64,000 nucleotides of DNA from Hippea alviniae EP5-r (lineage in GTDB: Bacteria > Campylobacterota_A > Desulfurellia > Desulfurellales > Hippeaceae): positions 868,001 to 932,000 of the forward strand of contig NZ_ATUV01000001.1 in NCBI RefSeq assembly GCF_000420385.1, read 5' to 3'. Shown here piece by piece: positions 23,452-41,105 of the stretch. Position 1 is the stretch's first letter. Every line of letters starts with the position of its first letter. The notes beneath the pieces are model-generated. The model was not told the DNA's origin, searched no databases, and saw only the letters and a list, made by a program, of their open reading frames with translations. The position numbers and the translations under genes are program-made.

Positions 23452-24168
23452 ATGTTAAAGTGTGTGGGGCTAAAGAAAAGCTATAAAAAGAAAATGGCTG
23501 TTAATAATGTGAATATAGAAGCAAAAGAAGGTGAAATTGTTGGGCTTTTGGGACCAAATGGCGCTGGCAAAACAACGACATTTTACATGATTGCTGGACT
23601 TATAAGGCCAGACGATGGAAGGATATTTATGGAAGATGAAGAGATAACACATCTGCCGATGTATAAAAGGGCACAAAAAGGACTCTCCTATCTGCCGCAG
23701 GAACCGTCAATCTTCAGGGGCATGACAGTTGAAGAAAATATTTACGCCATACTTGAGTTTGTTTATAAAGACGAGAAAACAAGAAAACTAATACTCGAAA
23801 AGCTGCTTGAAGATTTAAACATTGCCCATATAAGAAAAACACCAGCTTATGCCGTATCCGGTGGCGAGAGAAGAAGGGTTGAAGTTGCAAGAGCCTTAGC
23901 AACAAAACCAAAATTCATACTGCTTGACGAACCGTTTGCAGGTATAGACCCAATAATCGTTGACGAGCTCAAAGAGATAATAAAAAACCTAAAAAATAGA
24001 AGCATAGGCATAATCATAACAGACCACAATGTTAGAGAGATATTAGACATTGTTGATAGAGCTTATCTGTTGTTCGATGGCAAAATTGTAAGGGAAGGAA
24101 GGCCTGATGAATTAATAAGAGACGAAGAAGTCATAGATATGTATTTAGGCAAGAGTTTCTGCGTATGA
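23452..24168 (+). CDS. lptB: LPS export ABC transporter ATPase LptB
   Basis: LptB powers extraction of lipopolysaccharide from the inner membrane with LptFG. The 238 residues show Walker A GPNGAGKTT, the LptB-characteristic GLSYLPQEPSIFRGMTVEENI Q-loop region, signature AVSGGERRRVEVARA, and Walker B FILLDEPFAG. It is followed by rpoN with an ATGA overlap, an arrangement conserved in many proteobacteria. lptA/lptC, often just upstream, are absent here. The mRNA start predicted from the promoter makes this a leaderless candidate. Confidence 0.95.
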   Translation: MLKCVGLKKSYKKKMAVNNVNIEAKEGEIVGLLGPNGAGKTTTFYMIAGLIRPDDGRIFMEDEEITHLPMYKRAQKGLSYLPQEPSIFRGMTVEENIYAILEFVYKDEKTRKLILEKLLEDLNIAHIRKTPAYAVSGGERRRVEVARALATKPKFILLDEPFAGIDPIIVDELKEIIKNLKNRSIGIIITDHNVREILDIVDRAYLLFDGKIVREGRPDELIRDEEVIDMYLGKSFCV

Positions 24169-33040: not shown

Positions 33041-34844
33041 TAAATACATCCTAAACAAAGCAGATATAGTAAAAAAGAGTGCCGACTATTTGAGTTTAAT
33101 AATAGCCGTATCTTTCATCATTATTATTGCTCGACTCTTCTATTTACAAATCATAAAGGGAAACTATTTTTTAGACCTTTCAAAAAAAAACTCAATAAGA
33201 CTCATAGGAATAGCACCACCAAGAGGAGATATAAAAACATCCGACGGTGTCTTGTATGCAAAAAACACACCATCATTTAGCGTATCAATTTACAAAACAC
33301 CAGACTTAACAAAAAAGGCGATAGAAAAGATTGCCCAAATTATATCAATAGAGCCATCTCTCATAGAAAAAAAGCTAAAATTAACGCCATATTACAGAAG
33401 TGTTCTTATAAAAAGAGACATATCAAGAAATGAAGTATTTAACCTGCTTTTTAAAGGAGAGATAAACAGGTTCATAAACATAGAAGTAACACCAAAAAGG
33501 GTATATCCTTCAAATGCTTTTGCCTATGCCAATATTGTTGGATATCTAACGGAAGTCTCTTTGGATGACTTAAAGAAAGACCCAACATTAAAAGTCGGTG
33601 AACTAATAGGAAGAAAAGGTATAGAAAAGAAATACGACAAAGTATTAAGAGGGAAATGGGGATACAAGGAAGTTCAAACAGCATCAAACGGTATGGTAAT
33701 AAAAACACTCTCAGAAACACCGCCAAAAAAGGGCAAGACATTAACGCTTACAATAAACTCTAAGCTCCAGACATACATCTATGAACTGTTTAAAGAAGAA
33801 GGTTTACACGGTGCTGCAGTTGTTATGAGACCAGATGGTGCAATCCTTGCATTGGTTGACAGCGATACATTCAATCCCAACTATTTTACAGAGAGACTGA
33901 GCAAAAAGGAGTGGGAAAAGCTAAAGAAGAAACACCTTCTAAACCTATTCGATATAGCCACACAGGGTGCATTCCCGCCTGGCTCACTAATAAAACCCTT
34001 TATGGCACTTGCAGCTTTGAAAGAAGGAATAATTACACCAAACAAGATGATATTCTGTCCTTATGCGGTTAAAATAGGCAAATACATATATAGAGACTGG
34101 AAACCAGGCGGGTTTGGTAAGATAAACCTATACAGAGCAATAGAAAGCTCATCTGATGTCTATTTCTATCAAGTGGGAATGAAGTTGGGAATAAACAAGA
34201 TAGATTATTATCTATCAAAATTTGGGTTCGGAAAATCACCAAAGCTTTTTAGTTATTGCACAAAGGGTAATCTGCCATCAAGAGAGTGGAAATATAGAAA
34301 ATACAAACAGGGTTGGTATATTGGTGATACAATATCGACATCCATAGGACAAGGTTTCTTTCTTGCAAGCCCACTTCAAGTTGCCTTAGCCTTCAGCATA
34401 ATAGCAAACGATGGTATAGGATATAAGCCATTTCTTGTTAAGGATGCAAAAAGGGAAATTCTATATATTTTTAAAAGCAAATATTACAAAGACATAAAAA
34501 AAGCTCTATGGCTTGTTGTAAACGGACCTTACGGAACAGCATACAATGCACGCATAGAAGGTTTAAACATATGCGGTAAAACGGGCACAAGCCAGGTCGT
34601 AAAAAGCTCAGTGTATAAAAAGATAAAAAAGCTGCTCAAAGAGAAGAAGATAAAACCCGAAAAAGCTATAAAATACTTCCCACATGCCTGGTTTGCATCA
34701 TTTGCTCCTATGAACAAGCCACAGGTCGTTGTCGTTGTCTTCTTAGAACATGGAGAATACTCATCCAAAGCCGCAGCATTTGCTGGTATAATCTATGACA
34801 AACTCATTCAACTCAAGCTCATTTTATTGTCTCACCAATCTTGA
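33027..34844 (+). CDS. mrdA: Elongation penicillin-binding protein 2
   Basis: This class B PBP cross-links lateral-wall peptidoglycan with the Mre complex. The 605 residues include an anchor (about 21-44), the PPRGDIKTSDG pedestal region, and transpeptidase motifs SxxK (S320-LI-K323), SSD and KTGTSQ. The start GTG 33027 overlaps mreD by 14 bases. rodA, usual partner, is not next: the minus-strand pilC gene follows and the two 3' ends overlap by 26 bases. Confidence 0.93.
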   Translation: MAKRDKYILNKADIVKKSADYLSLIIAVSFIIIIARLFYLQIIKGNYFLDLSKKNSIRLIGIAPPRGDIKTSDGVLYAKNTPSFSVSIYKTPDLTKKAIEKIAQIISIEPSLIEKKLKLTPYYRSVLIKRDISRNEVFNLLFKGEINRFINIEVTPKRVYPSNAFAYANIVGYLTEVSLDDLKKDPTLKVGELIGRKGIEKKYDKVLRGKWGYKEVQTASNGMVIKTLSETPPKKGKTLTLTINSKLQTYIYELFKEEGLHGAAVVMRPDGAILALVDSDTFNPNYFTERLSKKEWEKLKKKHLLNLFDIATQGAFPPGSLIKPFMALAALKEGIITPNKMIFCPYAVKIGKYIYRDWKPGGFGKINLYRAIESSSDVYFYQVGMKLGINKIDYYLSKFGFGKSPKLFSYCTKGNLPSREWKYRKYKQGWYIGDTISTSIGQGFFLASPLQVALAFSIIANDGIGYKPFLVKDAKREILYIFKSKYYKDIKKALWLVVNGPYGTAYNARIEGLNICGKTGTSQVVKSSVYKKIKKLLKEKKIKPEKAIKYFPHAWFASFAPMNKPQVVVVVFLEHGEYSSKAAAFAGIIYDKLIQLKLILLSHQS

Positions 34845-36024
34845 ATATCGGCAGATACATAGCAACAACTAAGAACCCTATTATACCACCGAGAACTACA
34901 ATAATTATTGGTTCTATCATCGTGCTTAAATTTTTGACCGTATTATCAACTTCCTCTTCGTAATATTGAGACACCTTCTGCATCATATCGTCAAGTGTTC
35001 CAGTCTCTTCACCAACTGCAACCATTTGAATAACCATGTCTGGAAACTCCCCCGAATAAGACATCGCATAAGAAAGGTTCTCACCTTTTCTAACCATATC
35101 CCTTACTTCAAGCAAAGTCTCTTCTATTATGACATTACCCGAAGTCTTAGAACTTATTTCCAAAGCATCAAGTATATCTATGCCACTTGCTGTCAAAGAA
35201 GATAAAATAACAGTAAAATTAGCTATTGAGCCTTTTCTTGCTAACATACCAAAAATAGGAAGATGTAAAAGCATTTTATCTATAAATTTTCTAAAAGCAT
35301 AGTTTTTCTTGTATCCGATTTTAGCAGCAATTGCAACAGCAATAATTCCACCTACCATATACCAGAAGTATTTTTTCATAAACATACTAACATTAATAAC
35401 AATCTGTGTTGGCAACGGAAGACTCATCCCACTTGATTTATACATCTCAGCAAAAGTAGGTATAACAAATGTAAGAATTAAAGCTATAACACCAGTGGCA
35501 ACAATAGTAACCATTGTAGGATATATTAGAGCACCTTTTATTTTCCTTTTTAGAGCAAGGTGTTTCTCCAACATTTCAGCTAATCTTTTTAAAACACCAT
35601 CTAAATTACCCGTCTGTTCACCAGCTGCCACCATGTTTACATACATATGAGAAAAAACATCTTTATATGACTTCAAAGCTTGAGACAAACTTGCACCTGT
35701 TTCAACCTTCTGTTTTATATCATACAGAATTTCACCCATTTTTTTACTTTCAGCTTGCTCAGCCATTATATTTAAAGACTCATCCAATGGTAAGCCACTT
35801 GCAAGCATAGAAGCAAGCTGTTTTGTTACTACCATAAGCTCTTTTTCCTTTATCTTGGGCTTTAAAAAGGGTAGCTCTATATCCTTTGGAGCGGGCTTTA
35901 TTTTTATAACCGATATTCTTTTTTGCTTCAATTTAGCTGCTGCTTCGGCTTGAGATGCAGCTATTATTTCACCCTTTCTCATTCTACCCTTAGGGTCTCT
36001 ACCCTTCCATCTATAATACGGCAT
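34819..36024 (-). CDS. pilC: Type IV pilus inner-membrane platform protein PilC (GspF family)
   Basis: The 401-residue protein has two GspF/T2SF domains. Each starts with a LASMLASGLPLDESL or LSSLTASGIDILDAL-type helix and contains GEQTGNLDG / GEETGTLDD signatures. Three membrane segments are visible (about 168-190, 218-238 and 370-395). The N-terminal YYRWKGRDPKGRMRKGEI is family-typical. It would couple the PilB and PilT motors to pilin insertion and removal. It follows pilT by 3 bases. Confidence 0.94.
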   Translation of the reverse strand: MPYYRWKGRDPKGRMRKGEIIAASQAEAAAKLKQKRISVIKIKPAPKDIELPFLKPKIKEKELMVVTKQLASMLASGLPLDESLNIMAEQAESKKMGEILYDIKQKVETGASLSQALKSYKDVFSHMYVNMVAAGEQTGNLDGVLKRLAEMLEKHLALKRKIKGALIYPTMVTIVATGVIALILTFVIPTFAEMYKSSGMSLPLPTQIVINVSMFMKKYFWYMVGGIIAVAIAAKIGYKKNYAFRKFIDKMLLHLPIFGMLARKGSIANFTVILSSLTASGIDILDALEISSKTSGNVIIEETLLEVRDMVRKGENLSYAMSYSGEFPDMVIQMVAVGEETGTLDDMMQKVSQYYEEEVDNTVKNLSTMIEPIIIVVLGGIIGFLVVAMYLPIFKIGETIK

Positions 36025-36027
36025 ACT

Positions 36028-37122
36028 TTACCCCTTCATGTACCTTATTTTATCAAGCTCCCGTTGCAGGGTTTTCTTATCGTTGCTTGCTTCCAACGCA
36101 GTCTCATAACTAATTAACCCTTTTTTATATAACGCAACTATAGATTGATTCATCGTTATCATTCCAGATTCAGCCTGCCCCATTTGCATCGTTGAGTAAA
36201 TCTGAGGAATTTTATTTTCTCTTATTAGGTTTCTTATGGCCGCATTAGGTATCATTATCTCCATAGCAAGCACCCTACCCTTACCATCTTTCCTTTTAAT
36301 TAGCGTCTGAGATACAACGCCTTGTAAAGCAACGGATAACTGCGTTCTAACCTGCTCTTGCTGAGTTGGCGGGAACACATCGACAATCCTATTTATAGTT
36401 TCAGGTGCTGAATTCGTGTGCAAGGTAGCAAAAACAAGGTGCCCTGTTTCGGCAGTTGTGATTGCTGCCTGAATCGTCTCAAGGTCTCTCATTTCACCTA
36501 TCAGTATAACATCAGGGTCTTGCCTTAAAACATGTTTCAAGGCTGATGCAAATGTTGGAACATCGCTTCCAACTTCTCTCTGGTCAATTAGAGCCATTTT
36601 GTGAGAATATGTGAATTCTATAGGGTCTTCTATAGTTATAATATGAACCCTTCTTTCACGATTAATCTTATCAATTAAAGCTGCAAGCGTGGTTGACTTA
36701 CCAGAACCAGTAGGACCTGTAACAAGCACAATACCCTTTTTTAGTTCAGCAAACTTTTGAACAACAGGTGGAATACCAAGTTTCTCAAACGGTGGTATCT
36801 CATACGGTATCATCCTAAAGGCACCAGCGATTGTGCCACGCTGCATGTGTACATTAGCTCTAAATCTTGCGAATTTTGGAATACCAAAAGAAAAATCGAC
36901 ATCAAGATTTTCTTCCAATGTTTTTCTCTGAAGTTCCGTCATCACACTATAACACAACCCTTGAGCATCCGCAGGTGAAAGAACATCATATTCTTCAATA
37001 TCAAAAAGTTCCCCATGAATTCTTATTTTCGGTCTTGCACCCGCTGTTATATGTAAATCAGAACCATCTTTGGCAAGCATTATCTCCAAAAGTTCAACTA
37101 AATCTGTTGCTTTTTTTCCCAT
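36028..37122 (-). CDS. pilT: Type IV pilus retraction ATPase PilT
   Basis: The 364-residue motor disassembles pili. It has an N-terminal PAS-like half (LAKDGSDLHITAGARPKIRIHG), Walker A GPTGSGKST near residue 130, Asp box TIEDPIEF, Walker B ILIGEMRD, and the His box TGHLVFATLHT. The C-terminal AIRNLIRENK motif required for retraction in PilT is present. The frame is open 10 codons upstream, but AAAGGAGG placed before ATG 37122 sets the start. It is 16 bases downstream of pilB. Confidence 0.95.
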   Translation of the reverse strand: MGKKATDLVELLEIMLAKDGSDLHITAGARPKIRIHGELFDIEEYDVLSPADAQGLCYSVMTELQRKTLEENLDVDFSFGIPKFARFRANVHMQRGTIAGAFRMIPYEIPPFEKLGIPPVVQKFAELKKGIVLVTGPTGSGKSTTLAALIDKINRERRVHIITIEDPIEFTYSHKMALIDQREVGSDVPTFASALKHVLRQDPDVILIGEMRDLETIQAAITTAETGHLVFATLHTNSAPETINRIVDVFPPTQQEQVRTQLSVALQGVVSQTLIKRKDGKGRVLAMEIMIPNAAIRNLIRENKIPQIYSTMQMGQAESGMITMNQSIVALYKKGLISYETALEASNDKKTLQRELDKIRYMKG

Positions 37123-37138
37123 CTCTTTCCTCCTTTTG

Positions 37139-38830
37139 TTAGAAGGTGACATTCATTACTTCATCGATTGTTGTTACACCTTCCTTTATCTTCTTTAAAC
37201 CACTCATTCTCAATGTTGACATTCCTTCTTTTATAGCCTGATCTCTCAACTCATCCGTTGATGCACCTTCCAATATCATCCTTCTTAGCTTCTCTGATAT
37301 AGGCATAACTTCATACAAAGCTACCCTACCCTTATATCCAGTACCGTTGCAATTATCACACCCTTCACCCTTATAAATCTTAACGGTTTGAGCTTCTTCT
37401 TTGGTAAAACCTATCTCTTCTAAAGCTGCTGGTGGTATTGACACTTCTTTTTTGCAATATGGACAAATCTTCCTGACAAGCCTTTGGGCTAAAATTAGAA
37501 TAAGAGACGAAGCTATCAGATATCTTTCTATACCCATATCAACCAATCTCATGACAGTTGATGGTGCATCATTCGTATGCAGAGTTGAAAAAACAAGGTG
37601 TCCCGTTAGAGCTGCTCTAATTGCTATCTCAGCAGTTTCTGAATCCCTTATTTCTCCAACCATTATAACATCTGGGTCTTGTCGTAAAAAACTCCTTAAA
37701 GCTGATGCAAATGTTAAACCTATATCTTCTTTAACATGCACCTGATTTATACCTTCAATATTGTACTCAACCGGGTCTTCGACAGTCATTATATTAACAT
37801 CTTCCCTGTTTATCTTATTCAAAGATGCATAAAGAGTTGTCGTCTTTCCACTTCCTGTTGGTCCTGTAACCAAAATCATACCGTAAGGTTTTTTTATAGC
37901 CGCAAGATACCGAGATAAATCGTTTGATTCAAAACCGAGCTGTTCAAGTTCAACCTTAACACTGCTTCTATCCAAAACTCTCATAACAACCTTTTCACCA
38001 AATATCGTTGGTAGAGTTGATACGCGCAAGTCTATATCCTTACCTGCACTTCTCATCCTTATTCTACCATCTTGCGGAAGTCTCTTTTCGGCTATATTCA
38101 ACTTAGACATTATCTTAAATCTTGAGACAAGTTTTGGCGCCATTGTCCTTGCAAATGTCATTATAGTTTTTAATTTTCCATCTATTCTATACCTTATTCT
38201 TAGTTCCTTTTCGTAAGGTTCTATGTGAATATCGCTAACGCCACTTGAAACTGCCCTTGCGAGTATCGTGTTTGCGAGTTTAACAATGGGTTCCTCTTCT
38301 GCTGATTTTTCCAAATCTTCAACATTAACTTCCTCTTCAGTTTCTTTCAAAACATTGACATCTTCGGCTTCTTTCAGGGTATCTGCAATCTCTTCAAGCT
38401 CAGTTGTCGTTCCATAATACTTATCTATTGCCCTAATTATAGAACGCTCGTTAGCAAACAGTGGCGTAACATTTAAACCTGTTATAAATCTTACTTCGTC
38501 CAAAGCAAATATGTTGGTTGGGTCTGCTATTGCAACTTTTATCTTATTCTTATCAACTTCAACAGGTATAAGTGTGTATTTTTGAGCGATGTTTTTTGGA
38601 ACCTTTTTTATAACTTCTCTTGGAATTTCTATGGAGCTCAAATCTATACTATCAACACCATACTGTTTACTTAAAAACTCATTAAGCGTCTTCTCGTCAA
38701 CAAATCCCTTTTCAACAAGTATAGTCCCTAATTTCTTTTTAGTTCTTTCTTGCTCTTTTAAAGCTTCTTCCAACTGCTCCTGTGTTATAACTTTATTCCA
38801 TAATAATAATTGCCCCAATAATGTAGTCAT
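37139..38830 (-). CDS. pilB: Type IV pilus extension ATPase PilB
   Basis: The 563-residue motor drives pilus assembly. Residues about 1-150 form an MshEN-like N-terminal domain (LGQLLLWNKVITQEQLEEAL), which in some homologues binds c-di-GMP. The C-terminal half has GPTGSGKTTTLYASL (Walker A), TVEDPVEY, VGEIRDSETAEIA (Walker B), TGHLVFSTLHTND, and a four-cysteine zinc site (CPYC and CDNC) in the C-terminal part. It overlaps aroE by 4 bases. Confidence 0.94.
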   Translation of the reverse strand: MTTLLGQLLLWNKVITQEQLEEALKEQERTKKKLGTILVEKGFVDEKTLNEFLSKQYGVDSIDLSSIEIPREVIKKVPKNIAQKYTLIPVEVDKNKIKVAIADPTNIFALDEVRFITGLNVTPLFANERSIIRAIDKYYGTTTELEEIADTLKEAEDVNVLKETEEEVNVEDLEKSAEEEPIVKLANTILARAVSSGVSDIHIEPYEKELRIRYRIDGKLKTIMTFARTMAPKLVSRFKIMSKLNIAEKRLPQDGRIRMRSAGKDIDLRVSTLPTIFGEKVVMRVLDRSSVKVELEQLGFESNDLSRYLAAIKKPYGMILVTGPTGSGKTTTLYASLNKINREDVNIMTVEDPVEYNIEGINQVHVKEDIGLTFASALRSFLRQDPDVIMVGEIRDSETAEIAIRAALTGHLVFSTLHTNDAPSTVMRLVDMGIERYLIASSLILILAQRLVRKICPYCKKEVSIPPAALEEIGFTKEEAQTVKIYKGEGCDNCNGTGYKGRVALYEVMPISEKLRRMILEGASTDELRDQAIKEGMSTLRMSGLKKIKEGVTTIDEVMNVTF

Positions 38831-39648
38831 AGCCCTATATCCCCTAACAGCATTTTTGCGTTCTCTTTGTCAAACTCTATCCCTGTCCATATTTTAAATG
38901 AGTAGTAAGCTTGTCCAATAAACATATCTAATCCATTTACTGCTGTCAACCCTTTCTGTTGAGCTTTTTTTATAAGTGGCGTATCGAAATATATAACATC
39001 AATAATTATCGGCTCAAAAACCCAATCAAGTTCAAACGACAAATCTTCACTATTTAAACCAACAGGTGTGCAGTTTACTATTATATCGGCTTTTGAAATG
39101 ATATCTTTATCGTGCAGCTCACCCAAAACAATCTCAACCTTACCTTCAAACTTCTCTTTCAACCTATTAGCCCTTTCAAAACTCCTATTCAAAAGATATA
39201 TTCTCTTAACACCCAATTTATACATAGCATAGACAACAGAAACAGCAACACCACCAGCACCAACAACTACTATGTTATCTTCAGAACTGCAGAACTTAGA
39301 ATATTCTTCAAACATATCCATAAAACCAAGATAGTCCGTATTAAAACCGCAAAGCTTGCCATTTTCATTTTTTATCGTATTAACAGCTTCAAGAAATGCA
39401 GTATCATCATCTGTCTCATCGACATGCCTAAAAGCTTCATTCTTAAATGGAACGGTAATGTTTGCACCCTTTATGCCCAAAGCTCTAATAGCGTCTAAGG
39501 ATTTAGCTGCACTTTCTGGTTCAAAAGCAACATAAACGGCATTTACTCCATAATATTCAAACATGTATGTATGTAGAACAGGAGATAAGCTATGTTTTAT
39601 AGGGTTACCGATTACGCAATAAACATCTGTATCAGCTTGAATATACAT
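38827..39648 (-). CDS. aroE: Shikimate dehydrogenase
   Basis: It reduces 3-dehydroshikimate with NADPH in aromatic amino acid synthesis. The 273 residues show the substrate site GNPIKHSLSPVLHT, catalytic Lys in NITVPFKNEA, NTDYLGF, the nucleotide loop VVGAGGVAVSVVYA, the NRSFERA NADP-specificity loop and NCTPVGLNSED. GGAGAAGG precedes ATG 39648. It lies between tsaE and pilB with overlaps of 17 and 4 bases. Confidence 0.95.
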   Translation of the reverse strand: MYIQADTDVYCVIGNPIKHSLSPVLHTYMFEYYGVNAVYVAFEPESAAKSLDAIRALGIKGANITVPFKNEAFRHVDETDDDTAFLEAVNTIKNENGKLCGFNTDYLGFMDMFEEYSKFCSSEDNIVVVGAGGVAVSVVYAMYKLGVKRIYLLNRSFERANRLKEKFEGKVEIVLGELHDKDIISKADIIVNCTPVGLNSEDLSFELDWVFEPIIIDVIYFDTPLIKKAQQKGLTAVNGLDMFIGQAYYSFKIWTGIEFDKENAKMLLGDIGL

Positions 39649-40045
39649 CTATCCTTCTCCTTTGTTCACCTTCAATTTCAAACTCGATAACTATATCAGG
39701 CTCAATGTTGAGTTCTTCTGGCCATTCAATAAAAAATATCCCTTCTTCATTCTCCAAATACTCAACAACAGACTCATCTATTCCAACCCTGTAAAGGTCT
39801 ATGTGATAAATACCATCTCTATACTCGTTTATAACAGTAAAAGTCGGACTGCCGTTAAACTCTTCTTCCTTTATACCTAAGGATTCCAAAGCAAACTTTA
39901 CAAACCTTGTTTTCCCAGAACCTAAATCACCCTTCAAAAAAACAATACACTTATTTCCCTTCTTTGCCAAATTCTCAACAACCCAATATGCGGCCTTCTT
40001 TGTATCTTCTTCGCTTTTGCTTAGAAATGTTTTTAGAGCTTTCAC
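39632..40045 (-). CDS. tsaE: tRNA threonylcarbamoyladenosine synthesis ATPase TsaE
   Basis: TsaE works with TsaB/TsaD in making t6A37 in tRNA. The protein (about 137 residues) has Walker A KGDLGSGKT, the SPTFTVINEY threonine region and the YHIDLYR and FIEWPEEL motifs. The frame is open to a TTG at 40060, but that codon lies just upstream of, and overlaps the spacer edge of, the predicted -10 region. GTG 40045, six bases after the -10 hexamer, is therefore preferred and would make a leaderless message. It heads the tsaE-aroE-pilBTC operon. Confidence 0.88.
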   Translation of the reverse strand: MKALKTFLSKSEEDTKKAAYWVVENLAKKGNKCIVFLKGDLGSGKTRFVKFALESLGIKEEEFNGSPTFTVINEYRDGIYHIDLYRVGIDESVVEYLENEEGIFFIEWPEELNIEPDIVIEFEIEGEQRRRIDVYSS

Positions 40046-40051
40046 AGTTAA

Positions 40052-40080
40052 CTTATACAATGAATAACTTTACAATTCAA
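40052..40080 (-). promoter_or_regulatory. Promoter of the tsaE-aroE-pil operon
   Basis: On the minus strand TTGAAT (40075-40080) and TATAAG (40052-40057) are 17 bases apart. The predicted +1 coincides with GTG 40045. No Shine-Dalgarno is visible. Confidence 0.65.
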
Positions 40081-40096
40081 GCATTAAAGATATAAT
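40069..40096 (+). promoter_or_regulatory. Promoter of the GT9 glycosyltransferase gene
   Basis: TTTACA (40069-40074) and a perfect TATAAT (40091-40096) are 16 bases apart. Seven bases separate the -10 from ATG 40104, so the transcript should start at about the start codon. Its -35 is directly adjacent to the -35 of the divergent tsaE promoter. Confidence 0.72.
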
Positions 40097-40103
40097 CTCT
40101 GCG

Positions 40104-41105
40104 ATGAAGGTTTTGATTATTCAAATAAAGCAGCTGGGCGATGTTCTTCTATCTACGCCTTTAGCAGAAGCGATAAAACACCACTTGCCAAAAACTGAAG
40201 TTCACTTTTTAACATCAAAAAGAGCAGAAGAGATAGTAAGCCTAAACCCGTTCATAGATAAGATACACACAATAGAAGAAGGCATAATAAACGAGATAAA
40301 GGTGTGGTTTAAAGTAAGAAAAGAGCAATATGACGCTGTTTTGGATATTCAGAGAACAGGAAGATCAAAAAGAATAACCCTTTTTTCCAAAGCAAAGATA
40401 AGGGCTGCATTTGACGAAGTAAAAGACAAATTCTACTACAACACCATAATAGACCAAACAACATCCGGATATACAGCATTCGAAAGATTAGACATGCTCA
40501 AGGCAATTGGCATATACAAACCCAAACGATTCATGCCCAAACTCTTTTCCTCAAACAAGGATTTAGAGAATGTCAAACACTATCTTGCAGAGAAAGGCAT
40601 ATTCGACAAATTCTTTGTCGTCTCACCAACGGCAAGAAAACCAAATAAGATGTGGCAGGCAGAAGATTTCGGCAAAACAGCTCAAGCACTATCAGAACAC
40701 TTTAATCTTACACCAATCATCGTATATGGAACAGAAAAAGAAAAACCTATAGCCTTCAAAGTTAAAGAGTTTGCAAAAGATTCTATAGTCTTAGAAAAAC
40801 CTTTTTCTGTCAAGCAGTTTGCCGCTTTGGTTAAACTCTCTAAATTCTTCATAGGCAACGATTCGTTTGCATCACATGTTGCAGTCAGTCAACAAACAAA
40901 AACCATCGTAATCTGTGGCCCAACAGCCGGCTGGTTTATAGAAAACGAAAATACGATTCTTATTTACAAAGGTTTAAAATGTCAACCCTGCGGAAGTGCA
41001 GATAAGTGTCCTTACGATCTTGAGTGCTATAGAACCCTAAAAGATAAAGATGTGCTCAAAAGAGCAATACCGTTTTTAGAACAGGCCTTCAATAGTAAAC
41101 CTTAA
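40104..41105 (+). CDS. Glycosyltransferase family 9 (heptosyltransferase-like)
   Basis: The 333-residue product begins MKVLIIQIKQLGDVLLSTPL, the GT9 N-terminal signature with the GD dipeptide. The second Rossmann domain contains FIGNDSFASHVAVSQQTKTIVICGPT, the acceptor/donor region of heptosyltransferases. It probably adds ADP-heptose to the LPS inner core on the cytoplasmic face. A C-terminal cluster (CQPCGSADKCPYDLECYR) has four cysteines, as in WaaF/WaaQ relatives. Which heptose is transferred cannot be decided. Its end overlaps the converging HD-GYP gene by 30 bases. Confidence 0.88.
   Translation: MKVLIIQIKQLGDVLLSTPLAEAIKHHLPKTEVHFLTSKRAEEIVSLNPFIDKIHTIEEGIINEIKVWFKVRKEQYDAVLDIQRTGRSKRITLFSKAKIRAAFDEVKDKFYYNTIIDQTTSGYTAFERLDMLKAIGIYKPKRFMPKLFSSNKDLENVKHYLAEKGIFDKFFVVSPTARKPNKMWQAEDFGKTAQALSEHFNLTPIIVYGTEKEKPIAFKVKEFAKDSIVLEKPFSVKQFAALVKLSKFFIGNDSFASHVAVSQQTKTIVICGPTAGWFIENENTILIYKGLKCQPCGSADKCPYDLECYRTLKDKDVLKRAIPFLEQAFNSKP

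Follow-up and report, generated by a model that had tools for sequence, protein, structure and literature searches.

Leaderless genes preceded by a TANNNT or TATAAT -10 element about 12 bp upstream were recognised in 207 of 953 bacterial genomes by Zheng et al. (2011; PMC3160421), and the proteobacterial figures given there place the signal in 2 of 26 epsilon- and 8 of 33 deltaproteobacterial genomes. Of the 471 5' UTRs mapped in Campylobacter jejuni, 19 are reported to be shorter than 10 nt, with TAnAaT before the ATG (PMC3847290). As for the start codon itself, reporter experiments in mycobacteria indicate that a 5'-terminal ATG or GTG suffices and that TTG fails (Shell et al., 2015; PMC4633059), and leaderless GUG is described as poor in E. 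coli and good in mycobacteria (PMC4633059, PMC9031893), initiation in E. coli being put below 10% in work cited in PMC4633059. A competitive balance has been modelled for the divergent promoters with overlapping polymerase sites of the EcoRV restriction-modification system (PMC5333194); the leaderless C transcript treated in the same account is that of AhdI, a convergent system. Literature searches combining Hippea with leaderless, Hippea with Desulfurella and promoter, and Desulfurellales with leaderless returned nothing relevant.

The locus considered here lies in a 64,000-nucleotide stretch of the Hippea alviniae EP5-r genome (contig NZ_ATUV01000001.1, 868,001 to 932,000; the window, whose own numbering is used for positions within it), where 58 bp between tsaE and GT9 house two divergent sigma70-type promoters. 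The leftward gene, tsaE (39632..40045, minus strand; Pfam PF02367, 4.3e-26), encodes the t6A biosynthesis ATPase TsaE, begins with GTG and heads a tight five-gene run that continues on the minus strand (34819..39648, from ORF coordinates and Pfam) with an aroE-like gene (38827-39648), two type II/IV secretion ATPases (37139-38830 and 36028-37152) and a T2SSF gene (34819-36024); by their ORF coordinates these neighbours overlap or sit a few bases apart, and the run is probably co-transcribed. The rightward gene, GT9 (40104..41105, plus strand; Pfam PF01075, 8.7e-20), encodes a heptosyltransferase-like glycosyltransferase of family 9, begins with ATG and stands alone, a convergent HD-domain gene coming next. 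Leftward, the promoter (40080-40046) is read as TTGAAT (40075..40080, minus strand) and TATAAG (40052..40057, minus strand) with a spacer of 17, six bases separating the -10 (40057-40052) from GTG 40045; rightward (40069-40103), it is read as TTTACA (40069..40074, plus strand) and TATAAT (40091..40096, plus strand) with a spacer of 16, and seven bases precede ATG 40104. Hexamers, spacers and start distances are thus correct to the base in the preliminary description of this DNA, and its claim that both genes do without a Shine-Dalgarno sequence also stands, as no Shine-Dalgarno-like tetramer was found upstream of tsaE and none is visible by eye before the GT9 ATG. It had further called the promoters divergent and back-to-back, of which only the first holds: the two overlap at 40069-40080 on opposite strands, and because each -35 hexamer sits inside the spacer of the other promoter they are interlocked. 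GTG 40045 is the sole in-frame tsaE start that is both downstream of the -10 and close to the N-terminus; TTG 40060 was considered as a start and rejected, since it falls within the promoter and lacks conservation. Against the sigma70 consensus TTGAAT-17-TATAAG matches at 9/12 and TTTACA-16-TATAAT at 11/12, with both spacers within the 16-18 bp range, and no site in the 10 kb examined matches better than the rightward promoter, even though the scan overall returned no surplus (36 sites vs 32.1, sd 4.4, in shuffles).

Comparison with relatives provides strong evidence at tsaE, which was found in 29 of 31 genomes searched and whose upstream regions were read at 21 of the 29 loci (L008-L028; L029-L036 were set aside as distant). 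The arrangement TTGAA[T/A]-N17-TATAAN-N6/7-start precedes tsaE at 14 of the 15 loci of the window's family, which as loci of related species are non-independent observations, and the sole misfit is G012. At one of the loci read, that of G015, the script returned a TTG at gap 10 (gap denoting the bases between -10 and start codon), while an ATG at gap 7 is visible in the sequence. The start codon is ATG at 10 of the fitting loci and GTG at four, the N-termini vary (VKALKTFLSKSEED, MINNKSYVSKSENE, VEVKLEIISKSEKD, MTKKDSFESDNIET), as do the residues from the start to the conserved block, and the gap stays at 6-7 nonetheless. Thirteen of these 14 loci have no Shine-Dalgarno-like tetramer in the 20 bases preceding the start, and the AAGG flagged in G009 (L018) starts inside the -10 itself. 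Beyond the family, the three sister-family loci (L023-L025) have a different start, at which the ATG overlaps an apparent upstream stop, and the TTGAA-N17-TATAA element was not found at three further loci of the same class (L026-L028). It could be argued that the -10-like elements are chance matches in AT-rich DNA and that the true promoters lie further upstream and yield ordinary leaders without a recognisable Shine-Dalgarno sequence, and the region is indeed AT-rich, with further 9/12 matches upstream of both genes. However, when the 58 bp were shuffled 20,000 times with dinucleotides preserved, promoters scoring 9/12 or better at gap 5-8 appeared on the left side in 1.9% of cases, on the right side in 2.6% and on both sides together in 0.02%, and this last figure, the two-promoter conservation pattern and the placing of the start codon after the -10 at 14 of 15 loci render chance scarcely credible.

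GT9 allows a similar comparison, the protein being present in 19 of 19 genomes searched when paralogues are counted; stops flagged inside such paralogues (L049, L057 and L060 were checked) fall in the last few matched residues and represent the normal gene end. Of the thirteen loci read, each with a recognisable orthologous start, 12 belong to the family, and TATAAT lies 6-9 bases before the ATG or GTG in 10 of those 12, one of the ten starting with GTG. In G001 and G012 the GT9 ATG comes directly after an upstream stop codon, and the thirteenth locus, which is from the sister-family genome G018, lacks a TATAAT-type -10 before the start. Within the window's genus the gap is 7-9, and in seven relatives it is 8-9, which could leave one to three untranslated bases at the 5' end. 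It is accordingly possible, with rather less than an even chance, that the promoters are real and that transcript starts are spread, some mRNAs being near-leaderless with one to four bases ahead of the start codon; the genus-level gap of 7-9 fits, as does the report that an exact start at the start codon occurs in just 12 of the 19 short 5' UTRs of C. jejuni (PMC3847290), while the constant tsaE gap of 6-7 across the 14 fitting loci speaks against it. Such a reading is a refinement of strictly leaderless initiation, not its opposite. At both genes the -10 lies within the 5-8 bases of the start codon by which leaderless genes are recognised, and because this distance is kept while the surrounding sequence changes (gap 6-7 at 14 of 15 tsaE loci, 6-9 at 10 of 12 GT9 loci), the leaderless starts that had been predicted are strongly supported; judged from sequence, both transcripts are very likely leaderless.

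When the eight same-genus loci that keep the pair are aligned, the main invariants of the intergenic stretch are TTATAC, which is the tsaE -10 on the opposite strand (GTATAA in all eight), the 14-bp block CTTTACAATTCAAG (40068..40081, strandless), which contains both -35 hexamers, and the TATAAT of GT9; TTTACA and the interlocking of the overlapping polymerase sites are likewise kept in 8/8. Invariance across these loci, together with a palindromic match at 10 of 14 positions (counted by eye), would also suit an operator for a transcription factor governing both genes, in which case conservation would be uninformative on the -35 boxes. The halves of the block, however, evolve apart, as TTGAA[T/A] at N17 from TATAAN is kept at 14 of 15 family loci and TTTACA is missing from the corresponding place in family loci outside the genus; moreover, a single copy of the block is present in the window's own genome (G000) even at up to one mismatch, so that no regulon is visible; an operator is therefore improbable. 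The same separation of the halves is seen within the genus in G001, where a 277-codon gene (L016:464-1297) stands between tsaE and GT9, the tsaE promoter is retained, TTTACA is lost and GT9 no longer adjoins tsaE. The intervening gene looks like a membrane protein of the VKOR-thioredoxin type, and an inverted repeat (about 1340-1356 and 1427-1444) lies beside it. In G011 and G015, from another genus of the family in which the pair is kept, the two promoters are truly back-to-back by sequence (the G011 intergenic stretch being 71 bases, counted by eye), and interlocking is therefore a feature of the window's genus.

How common the spacing is was assessed on genes called in 464 kb of G000 and in 400 kb each of G008, G004, G016 and E. 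coli K-12, by scoring two-hexamer promoters of at least 9/12 at gap 6-7 before operon-head genes. A surplus was found in G000 (12 observed vs 4.3 expected, P 0.0016), G004 (8 vs 3.2, P 0.016) and G016 (13 vs 4.2, P 0.0004), and none that is significant in G008 (5 vs 2.8, P 0.15); the same pipeline gave no surplus in E. coli K-12 (2 vs 2.6), nor was there one at this gap before inner, non-head genes. Thresholds of 8, 9 and 10 were all run, G008 failing each and G000 being marginal at 10 (P 0.05). The peak emerges only under the model with both -35 and -10, TATAAT-like hexamers alone giving no clear peak before starts. Taken together, the four related genomes have the promoter at gap 6-7 before 36 of 432 operon heads, about 14 being expected by chance; by start codon, the surplus is found for ATG (31 vs 7.3), is weak for GTG (5 vs 2.8) and is absent for TTG (3 vs 4.4). 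The preliminary description had counted four of about fourteen transcription units with leaderless starts, and in the window this is borne out, with lptB, tsaE, GT9 and an HDOD gene having a promoter at gap 5-7 among 14 operon-head genes; it does not extend beyond, the rest of the G000 sample yielding 9 of 109 (Fisher p 0.04). Nor is there support for a high share for a Gram-negative bacterium, as had been proposed, because 36 of 432, with about 14 expected by chance, is of a similar order to the 19 of 471 given in the C. jejuni mapping (PMC3847290). On these samples the share would appear ordinary for the phylum of C. jejuni if Hippea is counted as a member.

Further genes with the spacing differ in how widely it is kept. 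The lptB-like ABC ATPase (23452..24168, plus strand; Pfam ABC_tran, the name lptB being that of the preliminary description) is preceded by TTGTTA-N17-TATCAT-N5-ATG, and its predicted leaderless start is well supported by a gap of 5-6 bases in 7/7 same-genus orthologues, compared with 0/5 other family loci and 7 bases in 3/3 sister-family loci (the comparison omits G005 and G012, which have paralogues only). HDOD, named alongside it, was rejected as a conserved leaderless gene, a comparable promoter being present in just 2 of 8 orthologues. A PsiE-like gene of G000 (L080:3613-4092; orthologues L205-L211) has TTGACC-N17-TAT[C/T]CT followed 6-7 bases later by the start, in 7/8 same-genus loci and in 0/3 others at the conserved start, the start codon being GTG in G000 and ATG in the same-genus orthologues. 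A leaderless-type start is also seen for a sodium/calcium exchanger (G000, L078:11845-12762) in 7/7 same-genus and 3/4 other family loci, a count that leaves out three distant sister-family matches, and a TnsA-like endonuclease gene of Tn7 type (G000, L081:7837-8541) has its -10 five bases before the ATG. In the sister family, ispH (LYTB; L119:3236-3327 in G016, L232, L241) carries TTGAAA-N17-TATAAT-N6/7 with GTG, ATG and GTG as starts in the three genomes, and no promoter of this type was found at ispH in eight genomes of the window's family. The SAM hydroxide adenosyltransferase gene divergent from ispH in G016 also has a leaderless-type promoter and makes a second double-leaderless pair.

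From the elements, their spacing and conservation, and the surplus of that spacing in the lineage, we infer where transcription starts, that translation is leaderless and that the promoters exclude one another, as follows. The 58 bp would constitute a minimal divergon of two interlocked housekeeping sigma70 promoters. Because the -10 sits 6-7 bases before the start codon (6-9 in relatives), transcription would start on the first base of the start codon (A in ATG, G in GTG) or no more than about three bases away from it, so that the predicted +1 is a purine, which RNA polymerase prefers at that position, and both mRNAs would be translated by recognition of the start codon at the 5' end and not by Shine-Dalgarno pairing. 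A sigma70 polymerase bound at one promoter has a footprint that covers the -35 of the other, and the pair should for that reason act as a competitive balance: judging from geometry and from general knowledge of the footprint, one polymerase should exclude the other, so that the holoenzyme would occupy one direction at a time and the tsaE operon would compete with GT9, no regulator being needed. That the locus is a divergon with interlocked sigma70 promoters, polymerase competition and two predicted leaderless mRNAs appears highly probable, and the interlocked divergent leaderless pair is very likely real, well supported and of a known kind. A further proposal can be advanced only tentatively, namely that the 14-bp block is a bidirectional -35 hub at which one polymerase picks its direction, the tsaE operon with its secretion or pilus ATPases and GT9 as an envelope glycosyltransferase being balanced by competition alone, and that ribosomes of this lineage accept a natural 5'-terminal GUG like AUG. 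Acceptance of GUG is suggested because ATG and GTG exchange at a fixed distance (GTG in 4/14 at tsaE, 1/10 at GT9, the PsiE-like gene of G000 and 2/3 at ispH). Among the new aspects, leaderless GUG on natural mRNAs lends itself best to testing, and promoter exclusion is testable as well.

Set against the described systems, the locus resembles EcoRV, where, as between tsaE and GT9, divergent promoters with overlapping RNA polymerase sites lie between two genes; in the EcoRV account, however, a C protein regulates (PMC5333194), whereas neither a regulator gene nor a regulon site was found here. With regard to start codons, mycobacterial leaderless translation has been tested with reporters (PMC4633059), while here it is predicted and the GTG surplus in the genome samples is small (5 vs 2.8). 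The leaderless mRNAs of C. jejuni and Helicobacter pylori occur at a frequency of similar order to that in the window's lineage, but those listed for C. jejuni all begin with ATG, and here GTG is found too (PMC3847290); if confirmed, leaderless GUG initiation may serve naturally in a Gram-negative lineage. In the comparison reported for Epsilonproteobacteria, leaderless starts are little conserved across species, in contrast to their retention across most of the family here, so that, if confirmed, such starts would be maintained family-wide (PMC3847290). The genes recognised by Zheng et al. (2011) share with tsaE and GT9 the signal, the spacing and the lack of a Shine-Dalgarno sequence. Unlike the cases presented there (PMC3160421), the two starts share one interlocked promoter region, and they make up a small locus, tested by evolution, whose divergent genes both look leaderless and whose promoters are predicted to exclude one another by position.
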